Source of the DNA: Hygrocybe punicea
Taxonomy: Eukaryota > Basidiomycota > Agaricomycetes > Agaricales > Hygrophoraceae
Assembly: GCA_963556145.1 (NCBI GenBank)
Contig: OY744473.1
Location: 744,001-808,000 of the forward strand
Reading direction: 5' to 3'
Length of the DNA: 64,000 bases
The position numbers and the translations under genes are program-made. Below are positions 5,121 to 36,003 of the stretch, piece by piece (within the stretch, counting starts at the first letter, position 1; each line of letters opens with the position of its first letter). The notes under the pieces are model-generated. The model was not told where the DNA came from. It ran no database searches and saw only the letters and a list, made by a program, of their open reading frames with translations.

Positions 5121-5127
5121 TCTGTCA

Positions 5128-5185
5128 TGACCTCACGAACCCCACCACCACATCAATTGACGTTGGAGCTGGGCTCGTGAGGTCA
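5128..5185. other. Nested palindrome module, copy 1 (in TIR element)
   Basis: Outer arms TGACCTCACGA and TCGTGAGGTCA form a perfect 11-bp stem 58 bp across; at the centre is ACATCAATTGACGT, a near-palindrome. The same architecture recurs in three hAT-like elements at 8,557, 11,032 and 35,952. Confidence 0.8.
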
Positions 5186-6266
5186 TATGATTTGGTCCAT
5201 TGGGAGATGGGCGGACGATGGATGGACAACGGGTGGACGATGGTGGCCACGCCATCATACCCATCTCCTTGCCCATGCCATCTCCCTCGCCCACGCCATC
5301 AAGGCTCCCTGCCTCTGCCATCACCTAGGCCCTGCCCGGCGCTGCGCTGATTAATGTCGCCCACGGAACAATGATGACCAATGGGTGGGTGGCGGGTGGG
5401 CGAAGGGTGGGCGATGAGTGGGCGACGGGCGGGCAATGGCGTGGGCAATAGCTTTAGATCTGATGGCAACTTTGAATTTAAATAGCTGCCGAAATCTTAT
5501 ATTTTGATAACTATTAAATTTATTATTTTAATCCTACCAAAAGTTTTAATTTTGGCCTGCCTTTAAGTGATGCCTAAATTTGGACTAGAAATTTTGAGTA
5601 AACTTGAAACTAAATTATGCTTTCCCCTTACAATTTAGATTGGATAATTATTTTGATTGAAAGAATAACCTAAAGATGAAAATAAATAAATGATTTAGAT
5701 GTGTATTTATTCATGATATAAATTTAATATTTAGGCTAGGCCTAAATGTAAATCTAAAGATTATATTTTTCTGCTAACTTTAGAAATCACTTTAGTTCTC
5801 AACTAAAAGTTGGAACTCCTGATGTGAATGAGTCACGTTTCTCTTTGACACGTCACCTCAATCGTTTACCTACGTCATGACACTTTTACATCCGTTATCA
5901 CATGTGTTTCCTTGTAGTTATATACCTTCATTCTCCCTCAGTTGTTTCCCTTTCTTGACTGAGGTGAGATTCCCCTTGTTCTCGTTTCATCACTCCACTC
6001 ATTGTTGTATGTAGATTACTCTCACAGGTACATACAACAATATATTAGTTGTTTCCCTTTCTTGACTGAGATTACTCTCACAGGTTATGAAGCCCTGCTG
6101 CATTTGAAAAAGAAACACTACATTGGACCTTGTAAAATCACGACTTGCCATTTTCTTTTTTTGCTTGCACATCGCTCCTCCTTGAGGCCCTTGTTTCCGC
6201 GTTTTTTTTTTTTCACATGCACCATTCCTCCTTGAGGCATATTATTGCTATTATCATCTTTCTCAC

Positions 6267-7110
6267 ATGTCTAGCCTTCGGTTAGACCATATCCCTCTTT
6301 TAGAGGGGGCTTGGAACTACCGTAAATGGGCACAGTCGATGAGATACACTCTTCAGGGTGAGGCTCTCTGGGCGCATGTTAGTGAAGGCCGAGACTCTTT
6401 GGACTTGATCAACCTCGGCACCTTTCCGCCTGACCCTGTCACTGCCAAATCCTCTGAGGACACCATTGCAAAAGCACGCACGTTCTATGGATGCCAGGAC
6501 CAATGCAATCATATGTCGTCGCATTTCCCCTTTAATCACGTCCAATATCCCTGCCAAGTTCGACAACAGTGCCCGGCGCACCTGGCAACATCTGAGCTCG
6601 ACGTATCAGCGTATTGACACTGCCTCCCAGTTTGAGCTTCGCACTCGGCTCTCCTCTCTTCGTCTCAAGGATGCCTCCGATGTGGAGCGCTACCTGGGCG
6701 CCTTTGTGTCGACCATGGAACAGCTCTCTGCCATGGCTGTTACCTATTCGCACCCAGATGCGGTCTACATGCTGCTCAATGGCATCCTGAACACCGGGAC
6801 CTGGTTGGTTTTCAAACAGATCATGATCACCGCGATCTCAGCTGCTGCGGCCCTGTCACCTTTTGTCGTCCTCATGTCTGAGGATATTGCTGCTTGCATC
6901 CTAGCGGAATCCCAGCATCTTCTTGCATCCGCCTCTGAAGCCATCCCCAGCCCTGGGTCTGAGTTTGCTAATGTAGCCCAGGAACCAGATCACCGCCCCA
7001 TCCACTGTCATCGCAACAATCCTAATGGCGTTTGCTGCTCCAACTGTGGGAAGACTTCTCATGATGACAGGCACTGCTTTGACGAAGGTGGTGGTATGGC
7101 CAGCGCCCTG
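6267..7110 (+). pseudogene. Copia gag
   Basis: The frame starts MSSLRLDHIPLLEGAWNYRKW, a typical UBN2/copia gag N-terminus, and after a frameshift near 6,470 continues with TWQHLSSTYQRIDTASQFEL. It ends in a CCHC zinc knuckle CSNCGKTSHDDRHC (C-x2-C-x4-H-x4-C) near 7,037-7,078. Gag packages element RNA into virus-like particles. The frameshift makes it non-functional as read. Confidence 0.85.
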
Positions 7111-7289
7111 AGTGGATGGCTCAACGCGATGCCTCGCATGAGTCTTCAAGGCCTCCTCATCCTGGGGGTCACTCCCATACCAGATCTCGCACTGAAGTCG
7201 CCAATGTTGCTTGCAGTGTTCCCCATTTGGCAGACCTCAGCTGCATGTCATCGGAGTACAGTGCCCTCATGCATCAGGTCCTGTCTGCT

Positions 7290-8418
7290 CTCCTGACTCT
7301 GGAATGACTTCCCATCTAGTCAAAGATCAATCCTTCTTTTGGTCTTATGATGAGTCTCAGGCCATGAGCGTCTGCACTGCCAACCACAGCATGCTTAACA
7401 CCCTAGGTCGTGGTAGTTGCATCACCATAATTTGCTGGTCCGGCCGCTCTCTTCGCCTGCACATGCATGATTGTCTGCATGCCCCGTCTGCTGTCATCAA
7501 CCTTCTCTCCATTGGCCGTCTCGTTGCCCATGGATTTGGCTGCAACTTTGAGGATTGCCAGGTCATTCTGACTGCCCCCGCTAGTGTGTCATCTGGTCAT
7601 CACGTCTGCTTCCAGCGCCCGCTTGAGAACCACCTCACCTTCGTGGACGTTGAGTTCATTCACCCACCATCTGACTCTCCCTCTCTGGAACTCACTGCCT
7701 TCTCTAAGACGCCTCCTTCTCGTGACCTCTGGCATGCATGCCTGGGCCATGCTGGCGATGCTGTACTCAATCTCATTGGGTCTGCATATCTTGGCCTGCC
7801 CCCACATGGCCCCCCCTCCTCTACATGTGAAGCTTGCATTATTGGGAAGCACATCCATCGCCCTCATCCCCCCTCATCCTTGCGTGCCAGTCTCCCTCTT
7901 CAGCTTGTCCACACCAATATCTGTGGCCCATTTCCTGTCCAGATGCCTCATGACAAACACTACTTCATCATTTTTCTCGACGACCACCTCAATGCCCTCG
8001 ATCTCCAGCTCCTTGCCACAAGGGACCAGGCCCTGTCTGCACTGCAGATCATCTACCCCCGCTGGGAGAAGAAATTTGGCCACTCCCTCAAGGTCCTTCA
8101 TTGCGACAATGCCAGGGTGATGCATTCACTGCATACCTCATGAAGCATGGCATTGAGCGTCAACTGACCGCACCTTACTCTCATCAACAGAATGGTTGTG
8201 CAGAGCGCATCATCCAGACGATTGAAGGTCGTGTCCTGTCAATGATGGCTGCAGTGGATGCACCTCGCAACCTCTGGGGTGAAGCCTCCCTTACCTGCAC
8301 TCACCTCTTCATGCTCACACCGTCCCAGGTCCTCCCAAATGGATGCTCGCCTCATGAGTTCTTTCATATGTCCCCTCCTGGCCTATCTCACCTTTGTGTC
8401 TGGGGTGTGCGTTGCTTC
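7290..8418 (+). pseudogene. Copia protease-region and integrase, interrupted
   Basis: The segment contains a gag-pre-integrase zinc-binding region (LWHACLGH followed by CEACIIGK) and the integrase core. The first catalytic Asp, usually in HTDLCGP, is replaced (HTNICGP). The second lies in a degraded HCDNA segment where the frame shifts. The Glu region survives as QQNGCAERIIQTIEG. The reading frame stops at GVRCF where a hAT-like element interrupts it and resumes at 9,404. Even without the insertion the D-to-N change would predict loss of strand transfer. Confidence 0.85.
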
Positions 8419-8556
8419 TAGTGTTGCCGAAGTTCGGTTTGGTCTGGTTTTTCGCTATTTTTGAAAAACCAGAACCGGAACCGGAACCGTGTCAAACAGT
8501 TTCACAGCATTCGGTCTGCATTCAAACGCGGTTCGAACCCTGAACCAACCTCCAAA

Positions 8557-8612
8557 TACCTCGTGCGGGCCAGACACGCGTCAATTGACGCAGCTGTCAC
8601 CCTCACGAGGTA
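8557..8612. other. Nested palindrome module, copy 2 (in hAT-like 1)
   Basis: Outer arms TACCTCGTG and CACGAGGTA, 56 bp across, enclosing the perfect palindrome GCGTCAATTGACGC. It is followed by AGATGG, as in the copy at 35,952. Confidence 0.85.
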
Positions 8613-8637
8613 GATGGGGGGGGTGCTCCATCTGTTT

Positions 8638-9395
8638 TAGTGATGCCGAAGTTCGGTTCGGAACCGATCCGAACCCGGTTTGAACCGCGAACCGAACCGG
8701 AAGTTCGGTTCTGGTTCAGCCATTTGGCTGAACCGAACCGCTGGTTCAGTTTGCGGTTCTGGCACTGACATGCGGTTCAAACCGCATTCAAACGCGGTTC
8801 AAACCGCGAACCGTAATGTATAGTTACCTACGTAGATACTCATTTAGATACTTAATTTTTCACATTTTTTTCTATGCAGTCGCGTGAACTTAGGTCATGT
8901 GACCTTAAACATACTCGCGCGAAACACTAACTTGAACGTTACTCAACAACCACGGTAAGTAACGGCCTCATACTATATTTTACTGACATTTTATTATATA
9001 GAACAGCCCCGTGGCCCACCTTGACCGCATAAAGAAGGCGCCCGCGGTCAAGGTGGGCCACGGGGGGCTGTTCTATGTAAGAAAATGTCAGTAAAATATA
9101 ATATGAAGTGGTTACTTACCGTGGTTGTTGAGTAACGTTAGTGTTGAGTCGAAATTGGGGTGTCGCACAAGTATGTTTAAGGTCACATGACCTAAGTTCA
9201 TGCGACTGCATAGAAAAAAATGTGAAAAATTCAGTATCTAAATGAGTATCTACGTAGGTAACTATACATTATGGTTCGTGGTTTGAACTGCATGTCAGTG
9301 CCAGAACTGCAAACCGAACCAGAACCGAACTTCCGGTTCAGTTCGCGGTTCAAACCGGGTTCAGATCGGTTCTGAACCGAACTTTGGCATCACTA
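8638..9395. repeat. 758-bp foldback palindrome inside hAT-like 1
   Basis: Both arms (about 370 bp) mirror each other from TAGTGATGCC inward, through CTACGTAG, AGGTCATGTGACCT and CACGGTAAGTAAC, to a GC-rich stem around 9,001-9,072 built on GTGGCCCACCTTGACCGC and its inverse. The centre is near 9,017. Its right end is also the right end of the outer hAT-like element, and it has no target duplication of its own on the left. Confidence 0.85.
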
Positions 9396-9403
9396 GTTGC
9401 TTC

Positions 9404-10207
9404 ATGAGGGTCCCTCTTGAACTTCAGACGAAGCTAGGCCCCCGCTCTCGTGAATGCTTCTTTATGGGTTACCCTGAGGGTGTTAAGGGTTATCACATCC
9501 GCAATCGGCACACTGGCACTTTCTTCAATTCTCGCGATGTCATCTTTGATGAGTCCTGCATGACCTTGCCTGGCGCTGCTCCCGCTGACCTCGATCCGTC
9601 CTCCACCTTGGCCCCTCCGATTGTCCCCCCTGTTGAACCCCCTTCACTTCCGCTCTCTGTTTGCCATCCTCCATCCCCCATACTTTCTTCCTTGCCTGTT
9701 CTTTCTATTCATCCTCCTCCTGTTCTTTCTGTTCCTCCTCCTTCTTCTCCCTCCTTTGTTCCCCTCCCTTCCCTGATTCCCACTTGCTCATCTTCTCATC
9801 CTTGCACTGTCACCCCTTTGGGTCTGGACCACGCGTCCTCTGTTGCCACCTCTAAGTCTCATCGTGAAAAGCTTGCTGCCAATTGTCTCGGAAAGTTAAA
9901 TGCTTCCTTGTCCTCCTTTGCCTCTGATAATACCCCCCCTCATCCGCATGTGTTTGACGACGACTATGCCAACCTTGTCTGCATGGAGTCTGCTTTCCTC
10001 TCCATTCGCAGTGATCGCCCTCGCAACCCCTCTGGTCCCTCATATGACCTCACCGTTCCACCAGCAACATATGCTGAGGCTCGTCATCAACCTGATTTTG
10101 AAGTTTGGGAGGTGACTGTAGTGAAGGAGCTTGACACCCTGCATTTGATGGGCGTTTATTGACTCATCTCCCTCCCTGTGGGTCGCCGGGCGATCGGCAA
10201 TCGCTGG
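9404..10207 (+). pseudogene. Copia integrase C-terminus and linker to RT
   Basis: After hAT-like 1 the frame resumes with RVPLELQTKLGPRSRECFFMGY, the conserved integrase C-terminal GKGY-type region, followed by a proline-rich linker and the start of the RT region (ATYAEARHQPDFEVW). A stop occurs in the Y-to-L stretch near 10,160, and the frame ends at AIGNRW where the next hAT-like element begins. Confidence 0.8.
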
Positions 10208-11545
10208 TAGTGTTTTAAAGTCCAGTCCATAGGACCGGAAAAAAACCGGAACTGGACTGGACCCAACCGCAAAAAAACCGGACCACCGGTTGCGGTTGGG
10301 CCACTTTTGGGAGGTTGCCGGTTGCGGTTTCCCGATGTGGATGAAGCTTATGCAACCGAGTTGTAACCGGTTGTAACCGGTTACAACCGGATTTTTTCAA
10401 CACCACTACAAGGTCGACCAACGGTGGCAAATGACGACGATGGCAGCAAAATGGCGGCGTCACGAGGGAACGCAAAACGAGAAAAAGCAGCGGGGGTTGG
10501 TGCGCCCATCCCGCTGCAGAAGGTAAGTGGTTTCAATCGTGGTTTATTGTCTATTCTACACTAACGCGACGACAACAACAACGGAGAACGGCAACAACAA
10601 CGACGGACAATGATGGGATGTGGGGAGAAGGGCAGCGAGGGGCCGGTGCACCCAACCCCCGTTGCAGTATGTAAGTAATTTTTTTTTGTTTTTTTGTTTT
10701 CTCAGCTACTAATTACACAAACGACGACAACAGCAGTACCAACACAAACAACACAAGCACCCGACGAGGATGACAGGCGGCGAGGACAAGGATGACAATG
10801 ATGGCCACCACCACCACCACCCCGACAACAACAACAACACCCACGGCCCTCCAAATGGGACGACGACAATAACAACATCAACCACAAACATCACCACCAC
10901 CACCACCACCATCACCACCACAACGCAGACAATGACCGTCACAACCACGACCACCACGACCGCAATGACAACCACAACCACAACCACAACCATGACAACG
11001 GCCATGGCCATCCCACCACCAACCCCCAACATACCTCGCGGATGCACACTGCCACGTCAATCGACGTTGGCGCTGCAACCGCGAGGTAACCGGGACTCGG
11101 AGGATGGCCGTGTTGGGCACCCACCACAACACCAGCAACAGGGCCGCCAACGCGCCAACGCGTCCACCACACACCCAACAGAGTGGCCAATGCGTCTGCG
11201 CCTACCCGTGCGCCCAACGCGATCACCGATGTGCTCATAATCGTGGCCGCCAACTTTATTTATTAAAATTTAATACATTAGTTGTTATTTATTGTTAATA
11301 CATTAGTTGTTATTTATTGTATTTACTTCGGTTCTGACCGGTTTCAACTGGTTTAGCAACCAGTTAATGGAAGGACCAGTTAAATTGGGTTAGAAGACAG
11401 CAACTGAACCGCAAGAGACCGGTTCTGAGCGGTTGAGTCTAGGTTGTGCCATCTTGTGGTGTTATGGCAACTGGTTCTGGTTGCGGTCTTTTGAAAATTT
11501 GTCAAAAAACCGGACCGGACCGGACTTTCAAACCCTAATCGCTGG
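10200..11545. mobile_element. hAT-like element 2 with 8-bp target duplication
   Basis: The element proper is 10,208-11,537, flanked by ATCGCTGG on both sides. Terminal repeats are TAGTGTTTTAAAGTCC and inverse GGACTTTCAAACCCTA. It splits the copia RT exactly inside AIGNRWVFENK. The interior holds GGTTGTAACCGG sub-terminal motifs, two GCAG-plus-GTAAGT sites near 10,515 and 10,669, and long CAC/AAC trinucleotide tracts at 10,760-11,010. The apparent threonine- and valine-rich ORFs there are repeat artefacts. No transposase. Confidence 0.9.
11032..11088. other. Nested palindrome module, copy 3 (in hAT-like 2)
   Basis: Outer arms TACCTCGCGG and CCGCGAGGTA (perfect 10 bp), 57 bp across, with the inner near-palindrome ACGTCAATCGACGT followed by TGGCGCTGC. 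Confidence 0.85.
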
Positions 11546-12955
11546 GTCTTTGAGAACAAGATTGATGGCTCCTCGCTCATTGCTAAGGGTCGTCTGGTCG
11601 CCAAGGGTTTTCATCAGATCCCTGACGTCGATTTCGGCAAGACTTTCACACCCGTTGCAAAGACAGCCTTGATTCGCCTGGTCGCCTCGATGGCCTGTCA
11701 GCATGGCTGGTCACTCCAGTGCTTCGATGCCACTTGTGCCTTCCTTTGGGGAGACCTCGACGAGGAACTTTACATGTCACTTCCCGATGGCTTTCGCCTT
11801 CCTGCCAGTGCCGTTCTCCCTGCTGGTGCTTCCAACGTGTCGGGTCTCATCATGCATCTGTACAAATCAATCTATGGTCTTAAGCAGGCATCCAACATTT
11901 GGTATTGGAAGCTTTGGTCAGTCCTTGAAAGGTTGGGCCTTGCTCGCTCTGCAGTCGACAACGCCCTTTTCCATTTCTCCGGCAACTGAAGAGGCTCCCA
12001 TGTCCAGTGCCTCCTTGCTGTCCACGTTGACGATGGCATGGGCAGCTCCAACTCTCGTACTTTTCTTGATTGGATCAAAGAGGAAATCATGCACAAGTTC
12101 AGTCTGAAGGATCTTGGTGGCGTCCAATTTGTGCATTGCCTCGAATCTCGACAACTCTGGATGCATCAGATGGATTACATTCATTCGCTCTTGTCGGACT
12201 TCAACTTATTGGACTGCAACCCTGTATCCATGCCGATGGAATCACCTTGCCCTCTGTCCACATCTGGTCCCCCAAGCACCATTCACGTGGAATATCAAGC
12301 TCTCATGGGCCGTTTACTTTTCCTTTCCATCTGTACACACCCCGACATATCCTATGCTGTTAACTGCTTAACCCAGCACAACTCCAATCCCTGCGCAGAT
12401 CACATGGCTGCTGCAAAACGAATCCTCCATTATCTTAAGGGCACGATGGATCTTTGCCTTTACTACAAGTCCATGACTTCTCCTCTTGCCCTCACTGCAT
12501 TCTCTGACTCCGACTGGGCTGGCTTGGACAACCGTGTATCCATTTCCAGCCACTGCTGGTTTTATGGCAATTGTCTCATCGACTGGCGCTCCAAGAAACA
12601 ATCAACTGTAGCTCTCTCATTGATGGAGTCGGAGTACATGGCATTGACACTCTGCCTGCAGATGGGTCTGTGGCTCAAGTCCTCTCTCATTCAACTCTCC
12701 CTTCCATTCATTTCCCCGATTCACATTGCTGGTGACAACGAAGGCTCGATCTCCCTTGCATCAAACTCATCTCATCATTCCTGTTTGAAACACATTGACA
12801 TCAAATATCACTTCATTCGTGAACATGTTGACTCTGGCACCTTCCTCGTTTACTGGGTTCCCACCACTTCAAACATCGCAGACATTCTCACAAAACCTCT
12901 TCATCATGAGTCGCATGACATTCACATCTCTGGACTGCGTTTACTGCCTCATTGA
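11546..12955 (+). pseudogene. Copia reverse transcriptase and RNase H
   Basis: Reads VFENKIDGSSLIAKGRLVAKGF, QCFDATCAFLWGDLDEELYM and YKSIYGLKQA, the standard Ty1/copia RT blocks. The catalytic box is VHVDDG (usual YVDD). A stop and frameshift occur near 11,990. RNase H follows with FSDSDWAG, SLMESEYMALT and GDNEGSI. The C-terminus reads TTSNIADILTKPL, also typical. The frame ends 7 bp before the polypurine tract and 3' LTR. Confidence 0.9.
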
Positions 12956-12962
12956 GGGGGTG

Positions 12963-13240
12963 TGTTGGAATACAATGAGTCACGTTTCTCTTTGACGCGT
13001 CACCTCAATCGTTTACCTACATCATGACATTTTTACATCCGTTATCACATGTGTTTCCTTGTAGTTATATACCTCCATCGTTCGATTCCTCTCCCTCAGT
13101 CATTTCCCTTTCTTGACTGAGATAAGATTCCCCTTGTTCTTGTTTCATCACTCCACTCATTGTTGTATGTAGATTACTCTCACAGGTACATACAACAATA
13201 TATTAGTCGTTTCCCTTTCTTGACTGAGATTACTCTCACA
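12963..13240 (+). repeat. Copia 3' LTR (278 bp)
   Basis: Begins TGTTGGAATACAATGAGTC and ends TACTCTCACA. It is intact and followed by the AGATG target duplication. It defines the empty site for the element sitting in the 5' LTR. Confidence 0.95.
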
Positions 13241-13245
13241 AGATG

Positions 13246-14260
13246 TACATACCTCGTTGTCATCCATTTCATTTCGGTTTTTAATGTATTCTGCCATAAA
13301 TGGCTCAAGGTTAAAATAGAGCTTCTTTGTTGCCCCTGAAAATGGATGACAATATGAAATAAGAGGCACTGCAGCGTAATGGATATAAATTGAATTTTCA
13401 AACAAACCAGTGGTGTCACCCCACCTGTGGAGTCCGATGGGACACCATCTGAGTATGTGGGAATACATGAAGACAGATGTGGCACAGTTTGAAACTGCAT
13501 CCATGTAGGAGGGATTGCAACACAGGTCTTCCCCCACCATTGCGTGATTGGTTATGCAGCCTATCATTGGTAGAATTGTTTTTATCACAGGAAAGCTGAT
13601 TGGTTCTGTAAATATCACAAGAAAATGTTGGTAACTTGAAAATTGTTTGCAAATGAGGTGAGACTCATTTTGCTGACCTGATTCCTTGGACAGGTTCAAA
13701 GCTTTGTCAAATACTGATACCATCTCCTCGAGTTGTGTGGGAATCAAGGTAGGGATGGCACGAGCTAAATCATTGCACACCATGGCGACATGGAACAAGT
13801 GTTCGAATATGCCGTTATCCAAGGTGTGGTCGGTTTGAAGGAACTAGAATTCACAATTAAATGATTATCGCAGTGTAAATTGGGCTGACTTCAGGAACCA
13901 AACCTCGTTAACAAAGGCAGGGTAGCTGAACTGTGCAGCATGCTGCTTAGAACCACTCAAACAATCAAATTATCCTTAGACTTACAACACTGTCATCGTT
14001 ATTTCACCAGAATTCAACATTCTCTGCACCGACGACCACAATGGAGCCCGATAAAGTGGGCAACAGAAAGGGGCGTCCCGAAAACTGCTTGAACCCTTCC
14101 TCAATCAACTCTGGGTGGTTGAAAGTAAAGAGAAATGCCGTCCATATATACCCAAAGAAGGTAGGGGTCCCACACAAGGCAGCATGTTGGAAGAGCCTTT
14201 GTGGGACCACTTGTATAAGAGAATTAGGACCAAGATTTTCAGGAACACCTCAATAAGCAT
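13246..14260 (-). pseudogene. Cytochrome P450 copy 1, N-terminal half
   Basis: The minus strand encodes the N-terminal membrane anchor (MLIEVFLKILVLILLYKW), then PTFFGYIWTAFLFTFNHPEL and GRPFLLPTLSG, and then NDLARAIPTLIPTQLEEM in later exons. It matches copy 2 closely but has frameshifts in the first exon (the anchor and the PTFFGY block lie in different frames). Relative to copy 2 it has lost at least a dozen CpG sites to TpG or CpA. The C-terminal half lies at 721-1,809. Confidence 0.85.
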
Positions 14261-14502
14261 TTTTAATGCAAGCAGGATGATGGGGTGCTGGGACAAGCAG
14301 AAATGCAGATTGGGAACATTTGTACTGGCATAGCGGCCTATTGAAGGTCACGAGGATCAGAGCGGATGGCCTGACATCCGACCTGAGCACTGAGTACTGA
14401 GCAGTGGGAAGGACGGTGACATTAGTATTATTACTACCACCATCAGGAAAATGGGGCTGACATGACATACCCTGGCAGTTCCAGTCATCTATGCATCATC
14501 GG

Positions 14503-15000
14503 ATGACATGTTTGTCCTTGTTTCCTCATTCCTATGCATGCCAAAGAAGAAAATAATGCTGTATGCCATGTTCTCCTTTCTTGTAATGCTGAACTTAAGT
14601 AAACCCTTAGTTGAATGCCCTGATTGATGTTCTCTTACATGCACATTCCAGCTCCATTCAATGGTATGTTTTTGTTATTTTTCACACTGGTTTTCACACT
14701 TCACTTACTTATTCTGTCAAGGAACCAACGTGGTCTTCCATGTTTGGAAGACATTGCTCAATCCAACCAATGAAAGATGCTAGAGACAATCATCCTGAAG
14801 GAATCGCAACATTATAAAGCTCCATTCACTGAAATTGTTTTGTGGGGTTGGAGGTTGAAAGTAGCTCAACGTACTCCAGTAGATGAAGTTTGTTATCACA
14901 TTATTCCTAAGACATATTCTTTATGTTAATTCTTGCATAGGCCAATAATATCAATGGTGAACTAGCTGGTCTCCAGATAAGCTAGATCTGCTCAAACCCA
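14503..15000. repeat. Direct repeat R, copy 1
   Basis: About 500 bp that recur at 21,602-22,110 in the same orientation, including GTTGAATGCCCTGATTGATG, CAGCTCCATTCAATGGTATG and AGCTAGATCTRCTCAA. No coding sequence or terminal structure was recognised. The two copies bracket the pseudogene block in between. Confidence 0.7.
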
Positions 15001-15539
15001 CTCCACCAAACCATAATGTACTCTGGCATGTAAAGTTGTTGTGTAAATTTATGAGTGAACAAATCCTTGACAAAAATAAATGTGTGAATACATTTTCCAT
15101 CTCAAACCAATAGACATTCACATGTTCTATTGGATGTAAACACTGGACTTGAGAGAATGAGTTTAGCATGTTACTTAAGCTCTTTCAGACACCTTCAATG
15201 ATAGTCAAGATGTTGATGACCGCTGAAGGTGGCTTTAAAGTTTTCAATCATGGCATTGAGATGTACAAGTCTTGCTCTTTTTCTCAAAAGTAATCTCGAT
15301 ATGTTCCGGAACTTCAACAGAAAGACACATCCCATGCCTCCAGTGTTCCAGTTCAGTGTATTAATTTATGAATGCTAAACCTAAGCTGGATTGAGCAGAG
15401 ACAGCTCAAACTGATTCTAAGTCCCAAGCTGGTCATACGGTGACAAGTAGGGATTACAAGACAAAAATGTCAGAACCTATGACAAGAAACACTCACCATG
15501 GTGTATGTTCCAACTCTGGTCCCTTCATATTTCCATTCT
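15001..15539. other. No supported gene
   Basis: AT-rich sequence downstream of the CSE1 remnant. It may hold further decayed CSE1 C-terminal exons, but I could not align any convincingly. Confidence 0.3.
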
Positions 15540-17558: not shown

Positions 17559-17589
17559 AGTGCTAATGGATCACAGTTGGGCAATTAAA

Positions 17590-22636: not shown

Positions 22637-22683
22637 TGTGTATTAGAGGTATAGAAATGCTTGGGTTATTTAGATTTAAAACT

Positions 22684-22700
22684 CCTTGCGGTGGGCTCCA
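22684..22700 (-). other. Primer-binding site of gypsy-type element
   Basis: On the minus strand TGGAGCCCACCGCAAGG follows the LTR end by 4 nt. It begins with TGG, as expected for pairing with a tRNA CCA end, and is nearly identical to the site at 28,056-28,072 of another element. Confidence 0.7.
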
Positions 22701-22704
22701 ATTT

Positions 22705-24054: not shown

Positions 24055-24217
24055 CCCAAAACCATTTGGGGTCATGACATCCACACAACACAATTAAATC
24101 AACTGTCCCCAGTTGTAACCAAAAGACAACAATTCTTTAATATGGAAGGAAGTCATTTACATCTTTTAACTATTCTTTTAACTTCTTTTTCATTTTTCCA
24201 AAGAACTCCTCCCAATC

Positions 24218-24787: not shown

Positions 24788-24980
24788 TCAACTTAACTAG
24801 GGATCGGATTCCAGAGGAGAGAAGAGCAGTTTTCATTGTTGCTTATAACTAAGACAACACTGCTAACAGGGGGGGTCAAGGTCTAGTGTCATCGCGAGCT
24901 GTGGGGGTTACCCAAAACAAGATGAGTCTGCCCCAAGAACCAGACTAAACGTAAAGAAAGGAAAAGAAGAAAAAGTCCGA

Positions 24981-25875: not shown

Positions 25876-26526
25876 CCGAACCAACAACAAGAACAGTATA
25901 TATAGTGACTGGTCTTGAGGGGAGGTAAATAGAAATACAACCATGAAGCCACAACATGTCCAACTCTACCATGTGTTCACCATGAGGCGTACATGAGGCG
26001 TCCTCATGTTGATGTTCTTGCGATCCAACTAGAGGCCCGGGTGTCGTTGAGGATAGAAGGGGTCCAGATGACTCGGATGATTTGTCATCGGATCATGTGA
26101 CATGCAGAATTGCCAATTCGAGGTCTACACTTGCTGTAACAGGCAAGTGCGCAGTTTGGCAAGTGCATTGCACGGTCGGGTTGAAGATGGGTATCGTCCA
26201 GTGTGGGGTTGGTGATGAGAGTGTCTTGAGGTAGTGTGGATATAGCGGCAAGGTTGGTATGAAAGAAAATGAAGGAATGTCTAGAGGAAAAAACCAACAG
26301 GACAGTGGGCTAGTCGAGGTCAGACATGTGAACAGCATAAGCTGTACCGGATGATGATGTCTGTGTCGATGACGTATCGAGGAGCAATGTCTTGTCCTGT
26401 CTGTGGAACAATGCAGTCCACCTGACGTCGGTATTTGTCCAAGAAAGGGTATTGTTGTAAACGAGTGTGGGAGGTATCAAGCTTATAGATGGAAAAGGAT
26501 AAATGACTGTGGGTCCAGGTTTCGAG

Positions 26527-26994
26527 TCATGGCATGAGTGACAAGCTGTGGGAACAAGTCATCGGGTACTGCATTGAAGCGGTGTCGTGCGAACAATATA
26601 TGATAGGGGTTGGTTCACTGTTTGGGAAGTCGTATGGTCTGTGGTCGAAGTCCAAAAGAGTATGCTCCGGCGATGGTCGGATTAGAGAGAACAGTGAAAT
26701 GTCTCGTGATCGGGGATTGTTTGGAGTTCGCATGCAGGTGAGGAATGTCGTCAGATCATCAGGGAGGATAATGGTGGGCACAGGGTATGAATATGGAAAC
26801 CAAATATCCGGGAATGGCAATTGTCAATTACGTGTCGATATATTGTTGAGGTGGAAGTCAGAAGTATCAATGGCAGAAGGGTTTCGGTGCCGATGCCAAA
26901 GATAGATCATAACAAGGTAGAAACCGATTAGGAAGGTGATGGCAATGCTGCCAATAACAATTACGGTAATGAGCTGTGTCGGGAGTACAGCCAT
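26527..26994 (-). pseudogene. Hypothetical single-pass membrane protein with in-frame stop
   Basis: Starts MAVLPTQLITVIVIGSIAIT; residues about 8-30 form one hydrophobic helix followed by a basic WHRHRN stop-transfer segment. The frame has one stop at about 26,824 and continues (PFPDIWFPYSYPVPTIILPD) to 26,527. Family unknown. The interval 25,876-27,133 otherwise shows nothing I can name. Confidence 0.35.
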
Positions 26995-27133
26995 TGTGAT
27001 CGGTTTGTCGTGGGATAGCGTAAACAAGATATCGAAGGGAAAAGACAATGTCGGTGATGTCCATCGGCAAGGAGACTATTCGGGTACAACAAGGTCACAT
27101 GGGATATGTCCATGGTCGGTCTGGATTGTTCGA

Positions 27134-28053
27134 TGTAGAGGGTTGACGTCCCTCTGAGTCCGTATCATCGATATATCACGAATCCGGACCAACCTGATGC
27201 CGCCATTCGACTTGCATTCGAACCCGACGTAACCCGACGTGACGTGACGTGATGTGACCCGACGTGACCGACGTAACCCGACACATGCCGCTTTGTGACG
27301 GCCGCTTTTGGGCTAAATCCGTCAGCCTCAAACGCCTCGGAGTTCCAATTCCAGGAGATGGATCTCTTCGGACTCAATCCCCGACTTCGGATTTACCTTA
27401 TTTATGCATCCCCTCGTCCTTTCGGAGATATGTAGGACTTTTCCAATCTTTTTCATGGATATTCGTTTTCCCCTCCACTTTCCTGTCTTTGTTGCTTTGC
27501 AACCCCCCTTTCCACTTCCCCATTCCAGTGTTTCTTTGTAGTTTCTATCGGCCGAAGTAGACATGTCCGAAAGTAGCTACACACTCATGTACTATAAAAC
27601 GGTCCCCGACGACTGTACAAAATAAGATACCATTAGTCCCCGTTTCTCTCATAGTCAGAATTGTTTTAATCCCTTCAAATGCTCGTCCACGTAGTTCCTT
27701 AGCTTTTTATAGTTCACTTCGTCGACTTTATCATTGTTCCTGTATATTTGTTCATCGTTTCCGACCCGACCCGACCTGACCCGCCGTACCCGACATCGTC
27801 GGCATCGTCGGGTTCATTCGTTTTCAGTCTGTTCACCATCGGGTTCATCGTTATTAGTCCGTTTTCACTCCGTTCATCGCCGGATTTGTCGTTACTAGTC
27901 GAGTTTATGCGGCGGCTTTACTTTTATTTCACTTTCACTTCACTTATTATCCCCGACACTGAATTATCCAGTCACTTCTACGCTGACACCCTCTGGTTAG
28001 GATCATATTTCTTATCATTATAGTTCCGAAGCCACCAAGAACCCGCATCTACA
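27134..28053 (+). repeat. 5' LTR of non-autonomous element
   Basis: TGTAGAGGGTTGACG to CGCATCTACA. Contains ACTATAAAACGG near 27,591, a plausible TATA box, about 460 bp into the LTR. Confidence 0.95.
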
Positions 28054-28055
28054 TC

Positions 28056-28072
28056 TGGAGCCCACCGCGAGG
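28056..28072 (+). other. Primer-binding site
   Basis: TGGAGCCCACCGCGAGG, 2 nt after the LTR end. The same site, one base different, serves the element at 22,684. Confidence 0.85.
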
Positions 28073-28739
28073 ATAATTCAGTGTCATCATTCATTCATTC
28101 CATAACCCTACACTTTCCTTTCGTCATCTCGAAATAACCCTTGCTGCAGCACTCTACACATCCGACTCCCGTTACCCAACCTCTTTACATCCGACATCCG
28201 ATGCCTCGACAATCCAATCGCCAACTGCCACACTATCATTTGGGTTTGATTCTCATAATATTTTCTCTTCTTTAACGACTACGATTGTCTAGTATCACGT
28301 ACAACTTCGAACCCGCTCTTGCGCGGCCGACCCAACGGCCGTTTACTGCTTTAGGAAACTTGCACAGCCACGATCCAACACTCTTGTTTTCGACTCGAAC
28401 TTCGTCACATCCACCGTCCACAATCGTTTATAGACCTCCAACACGCTCGGAATCCCAATCCCCACCGATACCCGTCGAAAAACCGCGACCGGAAAGCCCC
28501 AAAACATCGACTCGCCCAACGGCACTCACGCGTCACTCACAACTTGGAACAGACGGATCTCCGTGCAACGGGTTTAGCCTGTGTACCCCCAGCCGCTCGC
28601 GTCTACGAACTCGCACTTGTCACCGGATACAAGCCCTTACAGACCCCCCCATCGTCTGAGCCCACGAAGTTACCAGCAAAACCACGTCAGCGCCCTTCAC
28701 GAGTTCATGCGAGCAGCCCCCGCGTTCGAGCCCTCAACA

Positions 28740-30170
28740 CTGAGCTACAGCCCCACGACGCCATTCGCGAGCCTCACAAGCCATCTTCGCCGTTATCGAT
28801 GCCCCACACCGTGCCACGTCACCCGGCTTCGTGCCCCAGCCAAGTCGACATCTCCGGCCGCTCACGCCTTCGTTGGACACCCCGTCGCCTCGCACCGCTT
28901 CCCAGAGTCCCACATCGCCCTTCACGAGCCCTCACGAGCCGTCTCCGCCATTATCGAGTCCCCAACGCGTCGCCACGTCATCCCAGCTCATGCACCCGCC
29001 TATTCGACATCCCCGGCCGCTCACGCCCTCGTTGCTACCCCCACGCAGCCTCGTATGGCTTTCCGAGTCCCCACAGCACCCTTCGCGAGCCCACACGAGT
29101 TGTCTTCGCCGTTATCGAAGCCCCAACCGCTTACCACGTCATCCCTCGTGCCCTCGCCTACTCGACACCCCGGCCGCTCACGCCGTCGTTGGACCTCCCC
29201 GTCGCCTCGTACCGCTTCCTACAGCCCTACGACGCCCCTCGCGAGCTCTCACGAGCCATCCTCGCCGTCATCGACCCCTCACGTGTTGCCACGTCATCAT
29301 ACTCAACATCCCCGGCCGCTCACGTCCTCGTTGGATCATCCGCCGCTTCGTACAACCTCCCACAACCCTACAGCGTCCCTCGCAAGTCCGTACCAGCCGT
29401 CCTCGCCGTCATCGACGCCTCACGCATTGCCACGTCATACTTCCTCGTGCCCCCGTAACTCGACATCCCCGGCCGCTCACGTCCTCGTTGGACCACCCGC
29501 TGCTTCCTACTAGTTCCCAGCACCCCACATCGCCCTTCACGAGTCCTCACGAACCGTCTTCGCCGTTATCGATGCCCCACGCCGTGCCACGTCACCCTGC
29601 TTCGTGCCCCAGCCAAGTCGACACCTCCGGCCGCTCACGCCCTCATTGGACCTCTCCGTTGCCCTGCACCGCTTCCTACGGCCCCACGACGCCAGTCGCA
29701 AGCCCTCACGAGCCCTCCTCGCCGTCATCGATGCCTCACACGTTGCCACGTCATCATACTCGACATCCCCGGCCGCTCACGCCTTCGTTGAACCCATCCG
29801 CCGCCTCGTACAGCCTCCCAGAGCCCCACACCGTCGTTCGCGAGCTCTCACGAGTCGTCCTCGCCGTCATCGATGTCCCACACGTGTGCCACGTCACCCG
29901 CCTCATACCCCCGCGTATTCAGCGTTCCCCGCCGCTCACGCCCTCGTTGGAATTCCCCGTCGCCTCGCACCGCTCCCCAGAGCCCCTCGACGCCAGTCGC
30001 AAGCCCTCACGAGCCGTCCTCGCCATTATCAAGCCCCCAACGCGTCGCCACGTCATCCCGCTTCGTGCCCCCAGCCAAGTCGACATCCCCGGCCGCTCAC
30101 GTCTCCGCTGAATCACCCGCCGCTTCGTACAACCCTCAGCGTCCCTCGCAAGCCCGTACAAGCCGTCCTT
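28740..30170 (+). repeat. ~155-bp tandem repeat array inside the retrotransposon
   Basis: The landmark CCGGCCGCTCACG recurs at about 28,848, 29,006, 29,170, 29,313, 29,467, 29,627, 29,769, 29,927 and 30,086, i.e. every 142-164 bp. Units contain recurring CCTCACGAGC, CGCCACGTCATC and TCGTTGGA. Three frames stay open for 300-460 codons, encoding Pro/Ser/Arg-rich repeats (SPAAHALVG, SRAVLAVID). The openness in several frames argues for composition and repetition rather than a selected protein. Confidence 0.85.
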
Positions 30171-31779
30171 GCTGCCCTCGAGCCGTCAACGCTGCGCCAC
30201 GTCACCCAATGGCCTACCACCGCGTTCTCTCATCCAGGACCAACGACCACCGCGTACGACCACTACCACACCCACGTTCACGCCTCCGCACCTCGACATG
30301 GCTCTCTACTGTCCCAAACACGTCCACCCCCGTCCCTCGTCGTCCCACGCAAGCGGCCACGTCACCTACATCACCCCGTCGACTCCCACTCTCGACCCCC
30401 GCTTCCCAGCCGTCCCCGTCCTCGCCCACTCCCCCTCGACCACCTACGTCCTCGACCAACCCCACGACGTCCCTCTCGCGAGCCCAAACGAAGCCCCGTT
30501 GGGTTATGCCCGCGAAACCGTGACCACCGGCCGCTCAAACCCGTTCCACGACCCGACGCATCGTTGTCAAATCCCCACGCATATCCGCCACGAAAGTACA
30601 CGAAACGCCACCCGTATCACCCCCAATCTATCTCCCAGTCCACGTCATCTCATCCGCCCACGTCATCCGCCTCCGTCCCCCGACATCGACCACCCGTTGC
30701 CGCCTCCTCAACCTCTCGCCATCCTCGAACGACCTCACGAAACCACGATCCACGTCACACAACCCCACGTTCCCTCTTATCCGCCCACGTCATCCGCCTC
30801 CGTCGCCCTACGTCGCCCTATGCCATACCACCACACCGGACCACACGTTCCCCGCTCCCTCGACCCCACGCAGTCCCACAGTCGCCTCCGTCGCCCCAAA
30901 GACGAGTCCCTCCGCCCGTCAAAACGCCTCCGTTGTCGGATCCACCACCAGGAACGTCCCAGAAACGTGTCGACGGCACCCGAAGCACGCCTGAACACCC
31001 GTGACCCGCCGCACCCGTCTGCGATCTAACAGAGCCAAACGTCGTCACTGTACGAACCCGCCGCAGAACCGACACCCGTGTCTAGTCCCCACACCCGACC
31101 ACCCGTTCTCGACCAATCCGCTACATCGGCTTCCGGTTCCGGATCCGCGACTCGCATCACACCACCCGACTACGAACCCGGACGCGTTCCCAACGATTCC
31201 GCGGCATCCGGTTCCGGTTCCGGCTCAATTCGAGCATGAGGTTCCGGTTCCGGTTTCACATCCCGTACCCGCCACCTTCGCACCCCCATACCCACCGAAC
31301 CCGACCCTACGAAAACCCCATCACCTCCATCGGCTTAAGAATTATATACATAGATAGATTAAATAAATAAAAAGAAAGAAAAACGTCAGAGATAAAGAAA
31401 GATAAAAAGAAATACACTGGTTCCCGACACACCCGGCACCCGCATAATACACCCGACGCACCCAACGAACCCGCTTACGAACCCGCCGCACCCGCTTATG
31501 AACCCGACGCACCGCTTCACTCATTCCCCACGCACCCGACTCATCCGCTCACGCACCCGCATTCCACCCGTTGACATCGCTCTCCGCTTTCCATGACCCA
31601 CCGTTTCCGCCACCGTTTCGACCCAGACACAACGTTCCCTGTCTCGGCTTCGATTCCCAACCCACCCGACTTTATATTTCAGTTCCATGGGGGAGAATGC
31701 TTCCCCACGGGTCCAAGCCGGTGCTGAACCGCCTAGTATGAGGCTGATATCACAGCCGTTGATTATCGCCCCCATATTA

Positions 31780-31920
31780 GTATTGACATATCGAACCTCC
31801 GCCATCGTCTATCGAACCTCCGCCGTCGTCCATCGAACCTCCGTCATCGTCCATTGAACCTCCGTTGTCGTCATATCATATCGAACCTCCGCCGTCGTCA
31901 TATCATGTTCACCGTCGTCA
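31780..31920 (+). repeat. TCGAACCTCCGCCGTCGTC short tandem repeats
   Basis: Six or so imperfect 20-28 bp units of ATCGAACCTCCGYCGTCGTC. A second simple block, GGTTCCGGTTCCGG, lies at 31,125-31,255. Both are inside the retrotransposon interior; 30,170-32,515 holds no recognised gene. Confidence 0.75.
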
Positions 31921-32515
31921 TCGTATTTCTATGCCCATGTCACCAAGCCTTTCCGCAGCCTATGCCACCGTTTCCGCCACCCGTTGACACAGCCACCGAA
32001 GCGGCCGACCCTAACCCGACCTGACTACAACCGTTTTTGTCATCCGCTTTCGCTTTATGTTGTTTCCGCTTATGCCCTACGAGTTTCCGCTCATGCCTTT
32101 GTTATTTTTGTCACCCACCCTCAATCCCATTTCACGTTTTGATCTTACCCTGTAACCTTCCTTTCCGATCACCGACATTTATTCCCTTTTATCTATTTTG
32201 CATTTCCGCTGCATATTTGTCCCACCCTTGTAGCTTTCCGCTGCTTCCTTCATTTCCGCTTGGTTATATTGTCACTATAGTTTCTTTTCTATGTATTTCC
32301 GGACACCGGCATCACCCGCCTTTGTTCTCCGCCCTCCGACTCTCCACCATGTTCCACTAGTCACCATCCGCTCTCCCCCTTCGCATTGTCCACAACCCGC
32401 CTCGTCCCGTCGAACCCGATTCCACAACCACCACGTCAGCCTCATCTCACGCATCCGAGTCCCGAGTCCACGTAGTATCGACCAGGGATGGTCTTTATTT
32501 AAAGTACCCTGGAGA

Positions 32516-33435
32516 TGTAGAGGGTTGACGTCCCTCTGAGTCCGTATCATCGATATATCACGAATCCGGACCAACCCGATGCCGCCATTCGACTTGCATT
32601 CGAACCCGACGTAACCCGACGTGACGTGACGTGATGTGACCCGACGTGACTGACGTAACCCGACACATGCCGCTTTGTGACGGCCGCTTTTGGGCTAAAT
32701 CCGTCAGCCTCAAACGCCTCGGAGTTCCAATTCCAGGAGATGGATCTCTTCGGACTCAATCCCCGACTTCGGATTTACCTTATTTATGCATCCCCTCGTC
32801 CTTTCGGAGATATGTAGGACTTTTCCAATCTTTTTCATGGATATTCGTTTTCCCCTCCACTTTCCTGTCTTTGTTGCTTTGCAACCCCCCTTTCCACTTC
32901 CCCATTCCAGTGTTTCTTTGTAGTTTCTATCGGCCGAAGTAGACATGTCCGAAAGTAGCTACACACTCATGTACTATAAAACGGTCCCCGACGACTGTAC
33001 AAAATAAGATACCATTAGTCCCCGTTTCTCTCATAGTCAGAATTGTTTTAATCCCTTCAAATGCTCGTCCACGTAGTTCCTTAGCTTTTTATAGTTCACT
33101 TCGTCGACTTTATCATTGTTCCTGTATATTTGTTCATCGTTTCCGACCCGACCCGACCTGACCCGCCGTACCCGACATCGTCGGCATCGTCGGGTTCATT
33201 CATTTTCAGTCCGTTCACCATCGGGTTCATCGTTATTAGTCCGTTTTCACTCCGTTCATCGCCGGATTTGTCGTTACTAGTTGAGTTTATGCGGCGGCTT
33301 TACTTTTATTTCACTTTCACTTCACTTATTATCCCCGACACTGAATTATCCAGTCACTTCTACGCTGACACCCTCTGGTTAGGATCATATTTCTTATCAT
33401 TATAGTTCCGAAGCCACCAAGAACCCGCATCTATA
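32516..33435 (+). repeat. 3' LTR of non-autonomous element
   Basis: Same length as the 5' LTR; its terminal CA has mutated to TA (CATCTATA). Followed by TCGA. Confidence 0.95.
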
Positions 33436-33439
33436 TCGA

Positions 33440-34904
33440 GAAGAAGGGACAAAAAGAGAACAAGAATAAGAAAATACAAGGATGTCCAAATGAAGAAACA
33501 ATGACGTTGAAAGGAAGACAAAGGACAAAATGAAATGAAAAAGGAAGGTGTGCAGTGCAGAATCGTCATGGTGGGTATCGGAATGGGCATCAGGGTTGGA
33601 AGCGGAGTTGGAAATGTAACAAAGATATGGATTACGGTATATGGGCATCTGGTAGTGCTGAAGCACTGAGCGGAATAGCAGTGTAGTTGAGGTAAAGGGG
33701 ATATGTTAGGAAAAAGGCTTTTGTGGGGAACCGGAATGGTGGGTCAAGCAATACTAATGTGGGACGTTGTGTCACAATAGGTCCTTGTGGGTTCAGAACT
33801 AAACTGGCCCTGGCCTTCCTATATTGGGATGATGTATTTCAAATTTGATTTAAGGTTGTCTGATCAATCAAATTGAGATTTTACCATTCCCTTGGTTCTT
33901 TAGGGTCCTGCAACCATATCGGGTACAGATCTCTAATAGTACCGATGCTTATTTGGTCTGGTCTGTTTACTCAAGTCATATGAGAAAACATGTGCTGGTC
34001 ACATGTTTTCTGGGGTCATAGCCATACATTTGCACAATCCATCTTTTTCTTTCCTTTAGTCTGCCACTATAGTTCTGTAGTGCCCCACTCCTTTTTCTTG
34101 CTAGGCTACTGCGCAATAAATCATTAAAAAAATCTATCTGATGCTATGAATGGTCACTCCATCCTCCCTTCAATGGAACTCAAACAAAACCGCTAAGTAC
34201 ATTCTTATATGTATGTTCATTTGTTCACCATTACTGAATATTTGGTATTCAGATAAGATGGCTTATACCTAGCCATTCTAAACTACTATCTGCTGTAACC
34301 ATTCAAGAATGAATTCGTCTGGAGGATGGACAGGCCAGGGGTGATGCCAAGTGTCATTCCATTTCAACTAGGGCAAGCACTATATTTTTTCGGGTAGGAC
34401 TCAGTTGCTGGATTACTGGGAGTGGTGGGTCACCAGTCATTCATCCATTTCTTTATCTTTTCCATTCATACACCAGTTGTATTTCTTTTATTCTATTTTC
34501 TATTTCATTATGTCTTGTCATTTTCTTTTGTTTCGTTACATTTTAATCATTTCTATTTCATTATCATTGTATTCTTATCATGGGTCTGTCAACTTTAGAT
34601 GAGAGGGGTTGTACTATCACCTTGTAGCATTATACATCTTTTCTTTGCATGTCTGACTTAAACATGACCAGCAAATCATAAAAATAAAAAAAAATAGGCA
34701 TGGATAAAATTTATCTAATCAGTCTAGATAGCATAAAAAAAGGGTGCGTGATGGGAAATCATGTGCATAGATAAAAATAGTGGCCAATAAAATTGCATGG
34801 GGCATAGAAAAAGAGGGTGTGTAGCAGGAAATCACATGAGAGATAGGGGTCTTGAATATAACTGAATAGTCAGTCACAAAAGGTGCTAGAATATGGGAAT
34901 CAAT
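33440..34904. other. No supported gene
   Basis: AT-rich DNA with short open stretches on both strands but no recognisable motif. A loose repeat (GGGTGYGTGATGGGAAATCA-like) occurs at about 34,742 and 34,814. Confidence 0.3.
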
Positions 34905-35285
34905 GCAGAAAAAGGAAAATCTTGAATGAATGAGTGTGGGGCTATACAATAGTGGTGAGGAATAATAGTGTTGTATCTCTTCTGGAGTAGATCTGCAGAT
35001 AGTGGCACTGGTAACTGATGAAGATGATATATAGGATAACCATATTTTGACAACTTCAAACCTGCATCAAAGTCACCATGGGTCATTGACTTCTCCTGGT
35101 ACTTTTACTGAACCAACTGTAATGATGCCTGTAATGGAACTGACTGGCATTGTTTCATAAAGCCACATATGACAGACAGTGGCTGGAACTTGATATTTTC
35201 TATATTCAAAATTCTTTGCACGTGATGCAATGTGTGCAGCAAATTCGGGCTTGATTGCAAGAATAATATCTGTGATGTCTCCTGA
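34905..35285 (-). pseudogene. ASCH/PUA-like domain remnant
   Basis: The minus strand reads ITDIILAIKPEFAAHIASRA, KNFEYRKYQVPATV and MWLYETMPVSSITGIITVG, then in another frame DFDAGLKLSKYGYPIYHL. The IKPEFAxxIxxRxKxxEYRKY opening followed by WLYET resembles ASCH-type RNA-binding domains of the PUA superfamily. Frame changes indicate decay. It begins about 26 bp beyond the stop of the gypsy polyprotein, on the same strand. Confidence 0.5.
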
Positions 35286-35951
35286 TCCAAGAGATATTAA
35301 CTGATTTACTTAGCAATCCTCTACTTCAGCAGCTTCATCTTCCTGGTCTGCTATCTCATAAAGGATAGGGTCAGTCCAATAAATGTATGGCAAAATCCGA
35401 AATGCTGCATAATGCTCAGCATGTACAGCACCATCTAATTCTTTTAAGACATAAGTTCCTCTTCTACAACCTCATTTGGGCCAAGGTAATGAGGGTCTGT
35501 CTTAAATTTTCCTATAGTCATCTCCAAACGACCATTATATACTAGAACTAATTCTCCTGGCTGATAGTCACATTTTTGCAGCCATCTATGAAATCTTTGG
35601 TCAAATTGCAATTTAGATATGAAGCGAGCTTGCTTAAGCACAGCTGCTGCTTTATCAATGTCTTCTTGATGTCTTCCAAGCTGATGTATGCGGAGTGCTA
35701 ACAAATCTGATGTAGAAAGTCCTGAGCGAAAACCTTCAACCATAAATGTGGCTTCTGTTAGGTTAGTGTTGCCGAAGTTCAGTTCGGTCCAGTTCCAACC
35801 CTTTTTGGCGGAACCGCGAACTGAACTTCGGGTCCGGTTTGGCGCATGGCCAAACCTGGACCCAGACGGCGTCAAACCGTCTCTCCGCGTTCGGTCTGGG
35901 TTCAGACGCGGTCTGAAACCCAGACCGAGGTGGGCTCACCCCGTCCGTTCT

Positions 35952-36003
35952 CCTCGCGAATGGCAGGCATGTATCAATAGATACGGCGCTGCACTTCGCG
36001 AGG
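35952..36003. other. Nested palindrome module, copy 4 (in hAT-like 3)
   Basis: Outer arms CCTCGCGAA and TTCGCGAGG, 52 bp across, with inner palindrome GTATCAATAGATAC followed by GGCGCTGC. AGGTAGATGG follows, as in copy 2. Confidence 0.85.

Follow-up and report, generated by a model that had tools for sequence, protein, structure and literature searches.

The central domains of SINEs (CORE, V, Deu and similar) are short internal parts that are kept while the ends or the rest of the element differ. Bacterial REP sequences are short, hairpin-forming and very numerous, and the motifs of the gypsy insulator and of the VANC anti-silencing proteins occur as several cis-site copies per element. To our knowledge, a short internal sequence common to transposons of different superfamilies would not be expected. 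Palindromic repeats of Volvox organelle DNA (PMC2670323) are again short, hairpin-forming and present in very many copies.

The nested palindrome described here, hereafter the module, shares features with each of these systems. Like the SINE central domains it is a short internal part kept between differing ends, but those domains lie in retroposons and are not known to be dyad-symmetric, whereas the module lies in DNA transposons and keeps its complementarity. Unlike the REP and Volvox repeats, which it resembles in length, hairpin formation and number, it sits inside nuclear transposons that have their own ends, combines a constant arm and core with variable spacers, and gives no sign of lone movement. 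The role proposed below would work as the gypsy insulator and VANC sites do; those sites, however, are not known to be nested palindromes with covarying stems, and the factor that would read the module is putative.

The module and its carriers in the window

The window is the whole stretch of DNA analysed, 64,000 nucleotides from Hygrocybe punicea. A preliminary description had reported the same palindrome at four places in it, and all four are present in the sequence:

5127..5186, no strand assigned: module copy 1, nested palindrome (61.3 bits; dyad centre between 5156 and 5157)
8557..8614, no strand assigned: module copy 2, GGGCCAG type (69.6 bits)
11032..11088, no strand assigned: module copy 3, arms CCTCGCGG / CCGCGAGG (68.4 bits)
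35950..36005, no strand assigned: module copy 4, GAATGGCAGG type, loop AATA (63.3 bits)

The module can be described as a putative cis-acting DNA site of 51–54 bp made up of two nested inverted repeats. Its outer arm is of the CCTCGCGA / TCGCGAGG type, and its inner stem is closed by TC....GA, with adjoining base pairs that are free in sequence, yet complementary. The loop is mostly AATT, i.e. self-complementary, and the spacers vary from family to family. A conserved strip said to follow the palindrome, GGCGCTGC, is clear in the alignment of copies 3 and 4 but not in copies 1 and 2.

Each copy lies in a transposon of its own:

2612..5826, no strand assigned: CACATCAGG...CCTGATGTG element with module copy 1 and the 3-bp duplication AAT (TIR/TSD scan and edge letters)
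8419..9395, no strand assigned: non-autonomous hAT-like element with copy 2, TIR TAGTGTTGCCGAAGTTCGG, duplication GTTGCTTC (TIR/TSD scan, letters)
10208..11537, no strand assigned: non-autonomous hAT-like element with copy 3, TIR TAGTGTTTTAAAGTCC / TAGGGTTTGAAAGTCC, duplication ATCGCTGG (letters read)
35764..36991, no strand assigned: non-autonomous hAT-like element with copy 4, TIR TAGTGTTGCCGAAGTTC, duplication TGTTAGGT (letters at the edges)

The duplications reported earlier, 8 bp for GTTGCTTC, ATCGCTGG and TGTTAGGT and 3 bp (AAT) beside the CACATCAGG ends, were all recovered. The same account spoke of four transposons with different ends; different ends do exist, but the window holds three end types rather than four, because the elements at 8419–9395 and 35764–36991 have the same end class (TAGTGTTGCCGAAGTTC). 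The carriers of copies 2, 3 and 4 have the 8-bp target duplication and the short TIRs starting TA/CA of hAT elements. The carrier of copy 1, with AAT on both sides and inverted CAC... ends (CACATCAGG; 3/20 mismatches), is classed as CACTA/EnSpm-like as judged from its ends and 3-bp target duplication.

Across the genome, module carriers are non-autonomous hAT-type elements with at least three kinds of ends, plus the CACATCAGG element with its 3-bp duplication, and they often hold several module copies roughly 100–220 bp apart. Of 40 loci scanned, 19 had TA-type ends bordered by a perfect 8-bp duplication; two further hits (L006 and L038) were dismissed as false, and the remaining loci gave none within the flanks examined. 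Matches to PF05699, the dimerisation domain of hAT transposases, number 152 in the genome, and these transposases are a candidate source for mobilising the carriers. No transposase-bearing hAT element with an internal module was found at four such loci (L061–L064): the modules at L061 and at L062 are part of an adjoining element, at L063 it lies ~2.9 kb away from the transposase match, and L064 was counted neither way. A search with a 54-residue peptide read from locus L033 gave no relative.

According to the preliminary description, its idea would fall if the four elements proved to be one family sharing this DNA by descent. That holds within three carrier families, in which the module is inherited, and two of the window elements share ends; it does not hold where, among the matches listed, the same module variants sit between unrelated ends. 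The module is inherited together with the internal part of an element, and elements with different ends have exchanged internal parts.

Abundance, retention and covariation

The 92-Mb genome contains at least 1,434 matches to a pattern of the arms plus the TCAAT core (1418 forward / 1434 reverse), and 839 to one with perfect outer arms alone and the middle left free. The reversed controls gave 0 in both cases, which rules out a chance origin. TC-N4-GA stood at the centre of all 50 places listed among the 839 (by reading). That the arm letters stay the same from family to family is no independent result, since the search patterns imposed them. A half-site search with the break at the centre returned 54 matches, 51 of which continue with C like the known AACT-loop variant. 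As the 54 may include whole modules, all that follows is that half-sites on their own are rare relative to modules. The strict module pattern had 0 matches in a viral collection and in a bacterial/archaeal collection.

In nine related elements, CpG was intact in 86/100 arm cells and 66/75 inner cells versus 344/458 outside, so that loss in arm and core is somewhat lower than in the surroundings. At non-CpG sites of the same elements, the spacer (0.983) shows as few changes as the arms (0.977) and the core (0.974), with 0.947 outside.

The two halves of the module covary. The inner positions 7 and 8, counted from the centre, differ between module families yet stay complementary, and in 16 family representatives 91.3% of cells are paired, compared with 82.4 (sd 1.3) in shuffles and 22–57% in slid controls; two-sided cells number 30 versus 12.8 in shuffles. 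Permuting the right halves of the 16 families gave p 0.003 for inner position −7 and p 0.001 for −8. The 71 unselected relaxed-pattern strings alone, in which p depends on the clustering threshold, gave 0.004 or 0.02 for −7, 0.0001 or 0.0009 for −8, and 0.0002 or 0.0003 for −7 to −9 jointly; singly, −7 and −8 hold and −9 does not. The permutations yielded no robust signal at inner −9, −10, −11, −5 and −6 or at arm positions 6, 9 and 10, and the signal at arm position 8 varies with clustering. Nor did the C-rich 20 bp on the left and the G-rich 20 bp on the right (47/61 modules; the opposite in 0) pair better with their own partner (p 0.23). Compensatory change, as the preliminary description had suggested, is supported: self-complementarity is kept by two-sided changes, beyond shuffles, slid controls and half permutation. 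That description had named a lack of covariation genome-wide as what would speak against it; covariation is present.

One case within a family is F3 (100 of 205 matches listed). There, left GGGAGC pairs solely with right GAGCA (25/25) and right GGGA solely with left GGGGA (4/4); since these pairings are exclusive, opposite halves have changed to match in the same two letters. A mismatch is kept in 36 copies of this family, and because the copies are related, few independent events may be involved.

A proposed protein-read DNA site and its alternatives

We tentatively favour, at a little short of an even chance, the reading that the module is a DNA dyad or hairpin acting in cis within DNA transposons with different ends, read by a putative factor to the element's benefit. 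In the cell, the duplex could form an extruded DNA hairpin or be copied as one, and a dimeric protein of the host or the element would read arm and core; the module might then help its element to be transcribed, to avoid silencing, or to be replicated and repaired as it transposes. The covariation itself is compatible with selection as well as with hairpin-templated correction and does not separate them. Quasipalindrome correction is well established as a mutational process, and without any selected function the arrays could be inherited transposon filler whose symmetry arose as replication or repair copied one arm onto the other. The symmetrising two-letter changes in opposite halves of F3, the non-CpG spacer changes that are as few as those in the arms, and the inverted duplication at L065 (below), whose turning point is the module centre, would all fit such an origin, and foldback inversions via single-stranded hairpins are described for yeast (PMC7467729). 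Yet the TC-N4-GA core persists in every listed perfect-arm place despite family-variable spacers, and correction keeps halves alike while giving no reason for a fixed combination of arm and core; the slightly lower CpG loss in both also tells against filler. Common descent of all modules would also account for that combination. On balance, we regard filler with correction as somewhat unlikely.

The preliminary description had offered three options, of which a protein-bound DNA site, with its factor putative, fits best; an RNA structure draws no support from the G–U counts on the exon-1 strand, and a self-moving micro-element none from a search for empty sites whose ranking was biased against finding them. 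A hairpin in the transcribed RNA of transposons, retained because it serves processing, export or binding, agrees with the stable predicted folds of the modules and with the finding that folds are less stable when right halves are swapped between modules (−28.2 kcal/mol for a module's own half versus −22.3, 0/20,000 permutations; p 0.005 for the middle alone). Several carriers also keep a conserved first exon and a 5′ splice site reading towards the modules; a second shared motif considered as a further hairpin was dropped, the splice-site reading fitting better. However, 33 modules oriented by exon 1 have 377 Watson–Crick, 32 A–C, 18 G–T and 2 other cells, so that G–U is not favoured on the exon-1 strand (18 G–T versus 32 A–C). 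Were the other strand the one transcribed over the modules, 32 would stand against 18, the copies not being independent. The self-complementary AATT loop is a property that RNA does not need, and of the seven Rfam 15 matches in the window (E up to 5) not one reached the gathering score or fell on any of the four modules. An RNA role is quite improbable in our estimation. More doubtful still is a tiny mobile element (~56 bp) that inserts into transposons. In its favour, the same variant occurs between different ends, and, among the matches listed, the similarity of locus L023 to the class represented by window element 2 is confined to ~65–73 bp. But no target duplication is apparent in the flanks, most of which share just the outermost A and T (by reading), and a Tc1/mariner-type micro-element with a TA target duplication was rejected, flanking TA not being general. 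In shorter alignments of copy 1 relatives (read in L070 and L071), moreover, the gaps lie outside the module. All 40 best-scored copies in each of three carrier searches cover the module, and empty sites were absent from the best 40 of 621 for the copy 2 region, the best 40 of 703 for 261 bp around copy 4 and the best 40 of 116 for the copy 1 region; some may have been missed because the ranking favours full, module-bearing copies.

A broader form of the cis-site reading, which we consider unlikely, would make the module transferable: a nested DNA dyad, extruding as a hairpin and read by one putative host factor, would have been acquired across DNA transposon superfamilies as a common licence for transcription, silencing escape or replication during transposition, and would now and then serve as the turning point for new fold-back elements. 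Its retention by several superfamilies, at well over a thousand copies and with stem positions that covary, would suggest that fungal transposons depend in common on one host process. The ~16 variants form a natural series of one hairpin, useful for studying how hairpins form and how arms are corrected in eukaryotic DNA.

Inverted duplication and fold-backs

At locus L065, arms of 169 nt that are 99% complementary and 0 nt apart are centred on a module. The locus derives from a half element like that at L033, through an inverted duplication with the module centre as its turning point. A palindrome reaching into the flanks was found for just one of 96 modules; none of the other 95 scores above 39.5, against a 95th percentile of 61 in cross comparisons. 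Two further inverted pairs (L013/L014 and L018/L019) were set aside as evidence, since L029 mirrors around a run of N and the pairs may be assembly effects. In the window, the right part of the element at 8419–9395 (8638–9395) is itself a long fold-back.

Nested palindromes and their carriers

A nested palindrome with covarying stem positions is abundant in the genome of Hygrocybe punicea and common to DNA transposons of different ends. Reading of the window sequence bore out the four palindromes of one design reported in the preliminary description (5127-5186, 8557-8614, 11032-11088 and 35950-36005). In every copy, an outer arm of 8-10 bp leads into a stretch of 12-14 letters that are loosely related, then into an inner stem of ~5 bp around a loop of AATT or a variant of it, beyond which the mirror image follows. 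A covariance model built on these copies matched those four alone in the window (E up to 10), each of them on both strands because the module has dyad symmetry. Across the four copies, 93.2% of cells are paired in the true structure versus 26-47% in versions slid along the alignment, and two-sided changes occur at six pairs in this alignment of only four rows.

The module had also been assigned to four transposons with different ends, which holds in part. Window elements 2, 3 and 4 (8419..9395, 10208..11537 and 35764..36991) have hAT-type ends and 8-bp duplications, and in element 1 (2612..5826) the ends are CACATCAGG and the duplication is 3 bp long, but elements 2 and 4 share an end class. 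TA-type ends with an exact 8-bp duplication were found in 19 of 40 module loci scanned, element 2 included, many of the remaining loci being covered by flanks of only 1.0-1.5 kb; the ends of the 19 are TAGTGNTGCCGAAGTTC, TAAGGC/TAGGGC...CACGGGTA, those of element 3 and a few other kinds. Element 2 also contains a long fold-back (8638-9395), folding about a distinct hairpin centre of its own (9011-9063), and a sub-threshold match to Rfam MIR2646 lies at 9006-9066.

In the 92.2 Mb genome (42 contigs), a relaxed module pattern gave 1418 forward and 1434 reverse matches, and the reversed pattern gave none on either strand. Since the relaxed pattern is nearly its own complement and re-finds most places on both strands, the module count is stated as at least 1,434. 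A pattern fixing only CCTCGCGA and TCGCGAGG, 33-41 letters apart, found 839 places (control 0), and a central TC-N4-GA was read in the free middle of 50/50 among the matches listed. Arm position 8 is other than A in 142 forward and 141 reverse matches. No description of the module was found in the literature covered; most subscription journals lie outside that coverage, so it may have been published.

Paired change between families

For a comparison across the genome, 94 module strings (71 from relaxed-pattern places, 23 hand-picked from two other pattern searches) were clustered into 16 families, whose spacers vary from family to family. Every pattern used already prescribed CCTC and a G at position 7, so the constancy of both is uninformative by itself; TCAAT.GA was fixed in the relaxed pattern and free in the outer-arm pattern. 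Counted from the dyad centre, positions -7, -8 and -9 were jointly paired in 34 of 48 cases versus 17.8 after permutation of the right halves (0/20,000 as high). Because the 23 strings were hand-picked, the test was rerun with the other 71 alone under two clusterings, giving 18 or 13 families. Pairing was upheld at -8 (p 0.0001 and 0.0009, respectively) and -7 (p 0.004 and 0.02), as was the joint excess (35/54 vs 22.3, p 0.0002; 26/39 vs 15.5, p 0.0003), these p values serving as guides, as families may share ancestry. In the same rerun, -9 alone had no excess (p 0.63, 0.36), arm 5 was weakly above permutation (p 0.02, 0.01), the signal at arm 8 changed with the clustering (p 0.001, 0.11), and -5, -6, -10, -11 and arm positions 6, 9 and 10 gave no signal. 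All four Watson-Crick types occur at -8, and exchanging right halves between families weakened the fold. The compensatory change proposed earlier is supported among these families at inner stem positions -7 and -8.

Among nine related elements, CpG was intact in 86/100 arm, 66/75 inner, 38/50 spacer and 344/458 outside cells. Agreement with the consensus at non-CpG sites was 0.977, 0.974, 0.983 and 0.947, respectively, meaning that the whole module, spacer included, is less changed there than its surroundings. A diverged branch of the CACATCAGG family (L070 and L071) has three module differences and several flank deletions; both comparisons concern small samples of related copies.

Probable exchange between elements and a second cassette

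In three carrier searches, the best 40 of 621, 703 and 116 candidates were scored; all 40 places in each covered the module and none was short by a module length, although empty sites rank low and may be missed. The largest shortfall, 23 letters among the best 40 of 116, lay outside the module where read. The GAATGGCAGG type occurs in locus L009 (TAAGGC ends) and also in L020, L027, L028 and window element 4 (TAGTG ends), the similarity between L009 and L028 running from ~15 bp before the module to ~110 bp after it. The F3 type, another sequence variant, is present in both end classes (L005, L015, L021; L011, L026), the GGGCCAG type of L023 has only ~65-73 bp in common with the class of element 2, and the interior of element 3, module included, recurs in L036 between the other ends. 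The simplest account would be that internal parts were exchanged between elements, perhaps during gap repair.

Carriers with different ends share a second cassette:

L023:2054-2091, L009:1797-1834, L033:1916-1953 and others, reverse strand: probable exon end

TACCTGGGCCGGTAGGTGGGCGCACCACCCTCCC or close variants are common to nine loci; allowing three mismatches or fewer, the genome has 368 copies (control 0). The reverse strand reads as the probable end of an exon (AGRVVRPPTGPG type) and then a consensus 5' splice site; by reading, the open frame (e.g. MATERMAGRVVHPPTGP) terminates at AG/GTACGT, GTATGT or GTAAGT, and several copies have CTAAC-like branch points ~35 letters beyond. Most likely, the cassette is a first exon remnant of a gene-bearing ancestor.

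Hairpin in DNA or arm correction

Best supported, if still tentatively, is the reading of the module as a dyad or hairpin site in DNA; its main rival, correction of the arms without any function, appears rather unlikely. Among 33 modules oriented by the conserved first exon, there were 32 A-C and 18 G-T cells, and G-U was not preferred on the exon strand. The module loop is mostly self-complementary. Among 100 of 205 F3 matches listed, two adjacent letters were matched via a left-half change in one group (25/25) and via a right-half change in another (4/4), with the mismatch retained in 36 copies and others shorter; these copies are kin, and independent events may be few. One further locus carries a rearrangement:

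L065:1107-1930: L033-like half element, duplicated in inverted orientation with its turning point at the module centre

Here, a perfect 54-bp palindrome stands at the centre of arms of 169 nt (99%) with no spacer, and no mirror counterpart from the other half of the element was found at up to 3 mismatches. This would be a fold-back element at an early stage of formation. The cell counts, the loop, the F3 changes and this duplication all fit a hairpin formed in DNA. An extended palindrome is absent around 95/96 modules, which speaks against a general role in rearrangement.

A long perfect mirror image about a run of N (L029:196-7027) may be an assembly effect, and inverted pairs there should not count as biology. 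At L062 (~3690-3720), beside an intact module, a second one was read that seemingly lacks most of its right half and keeps its flanks, a loss resembling hairpin-associated deletions. Flanking sequence is skewed at the 61 modules compared, C-rich over the preceding 20 bp and G-rich over the following 20 bp (mean skew -0.39 and +0.36); 47/61 show this arrangement and none its reverse.

Elsewhere in the window lies one gene with a relative of known species:

57222-58601: HSP60

Of its relatives assigned to a named species, that of Piloderma croceum is the best (92% identity). By this comparison, the source would be an agaricomycete and may lie near Atheliales. Nearby, three frames (50324-50803, 53799-54302 and 60352-61353) with similar membrane-protein-like sequence are, by reading, seemingly paralogues.
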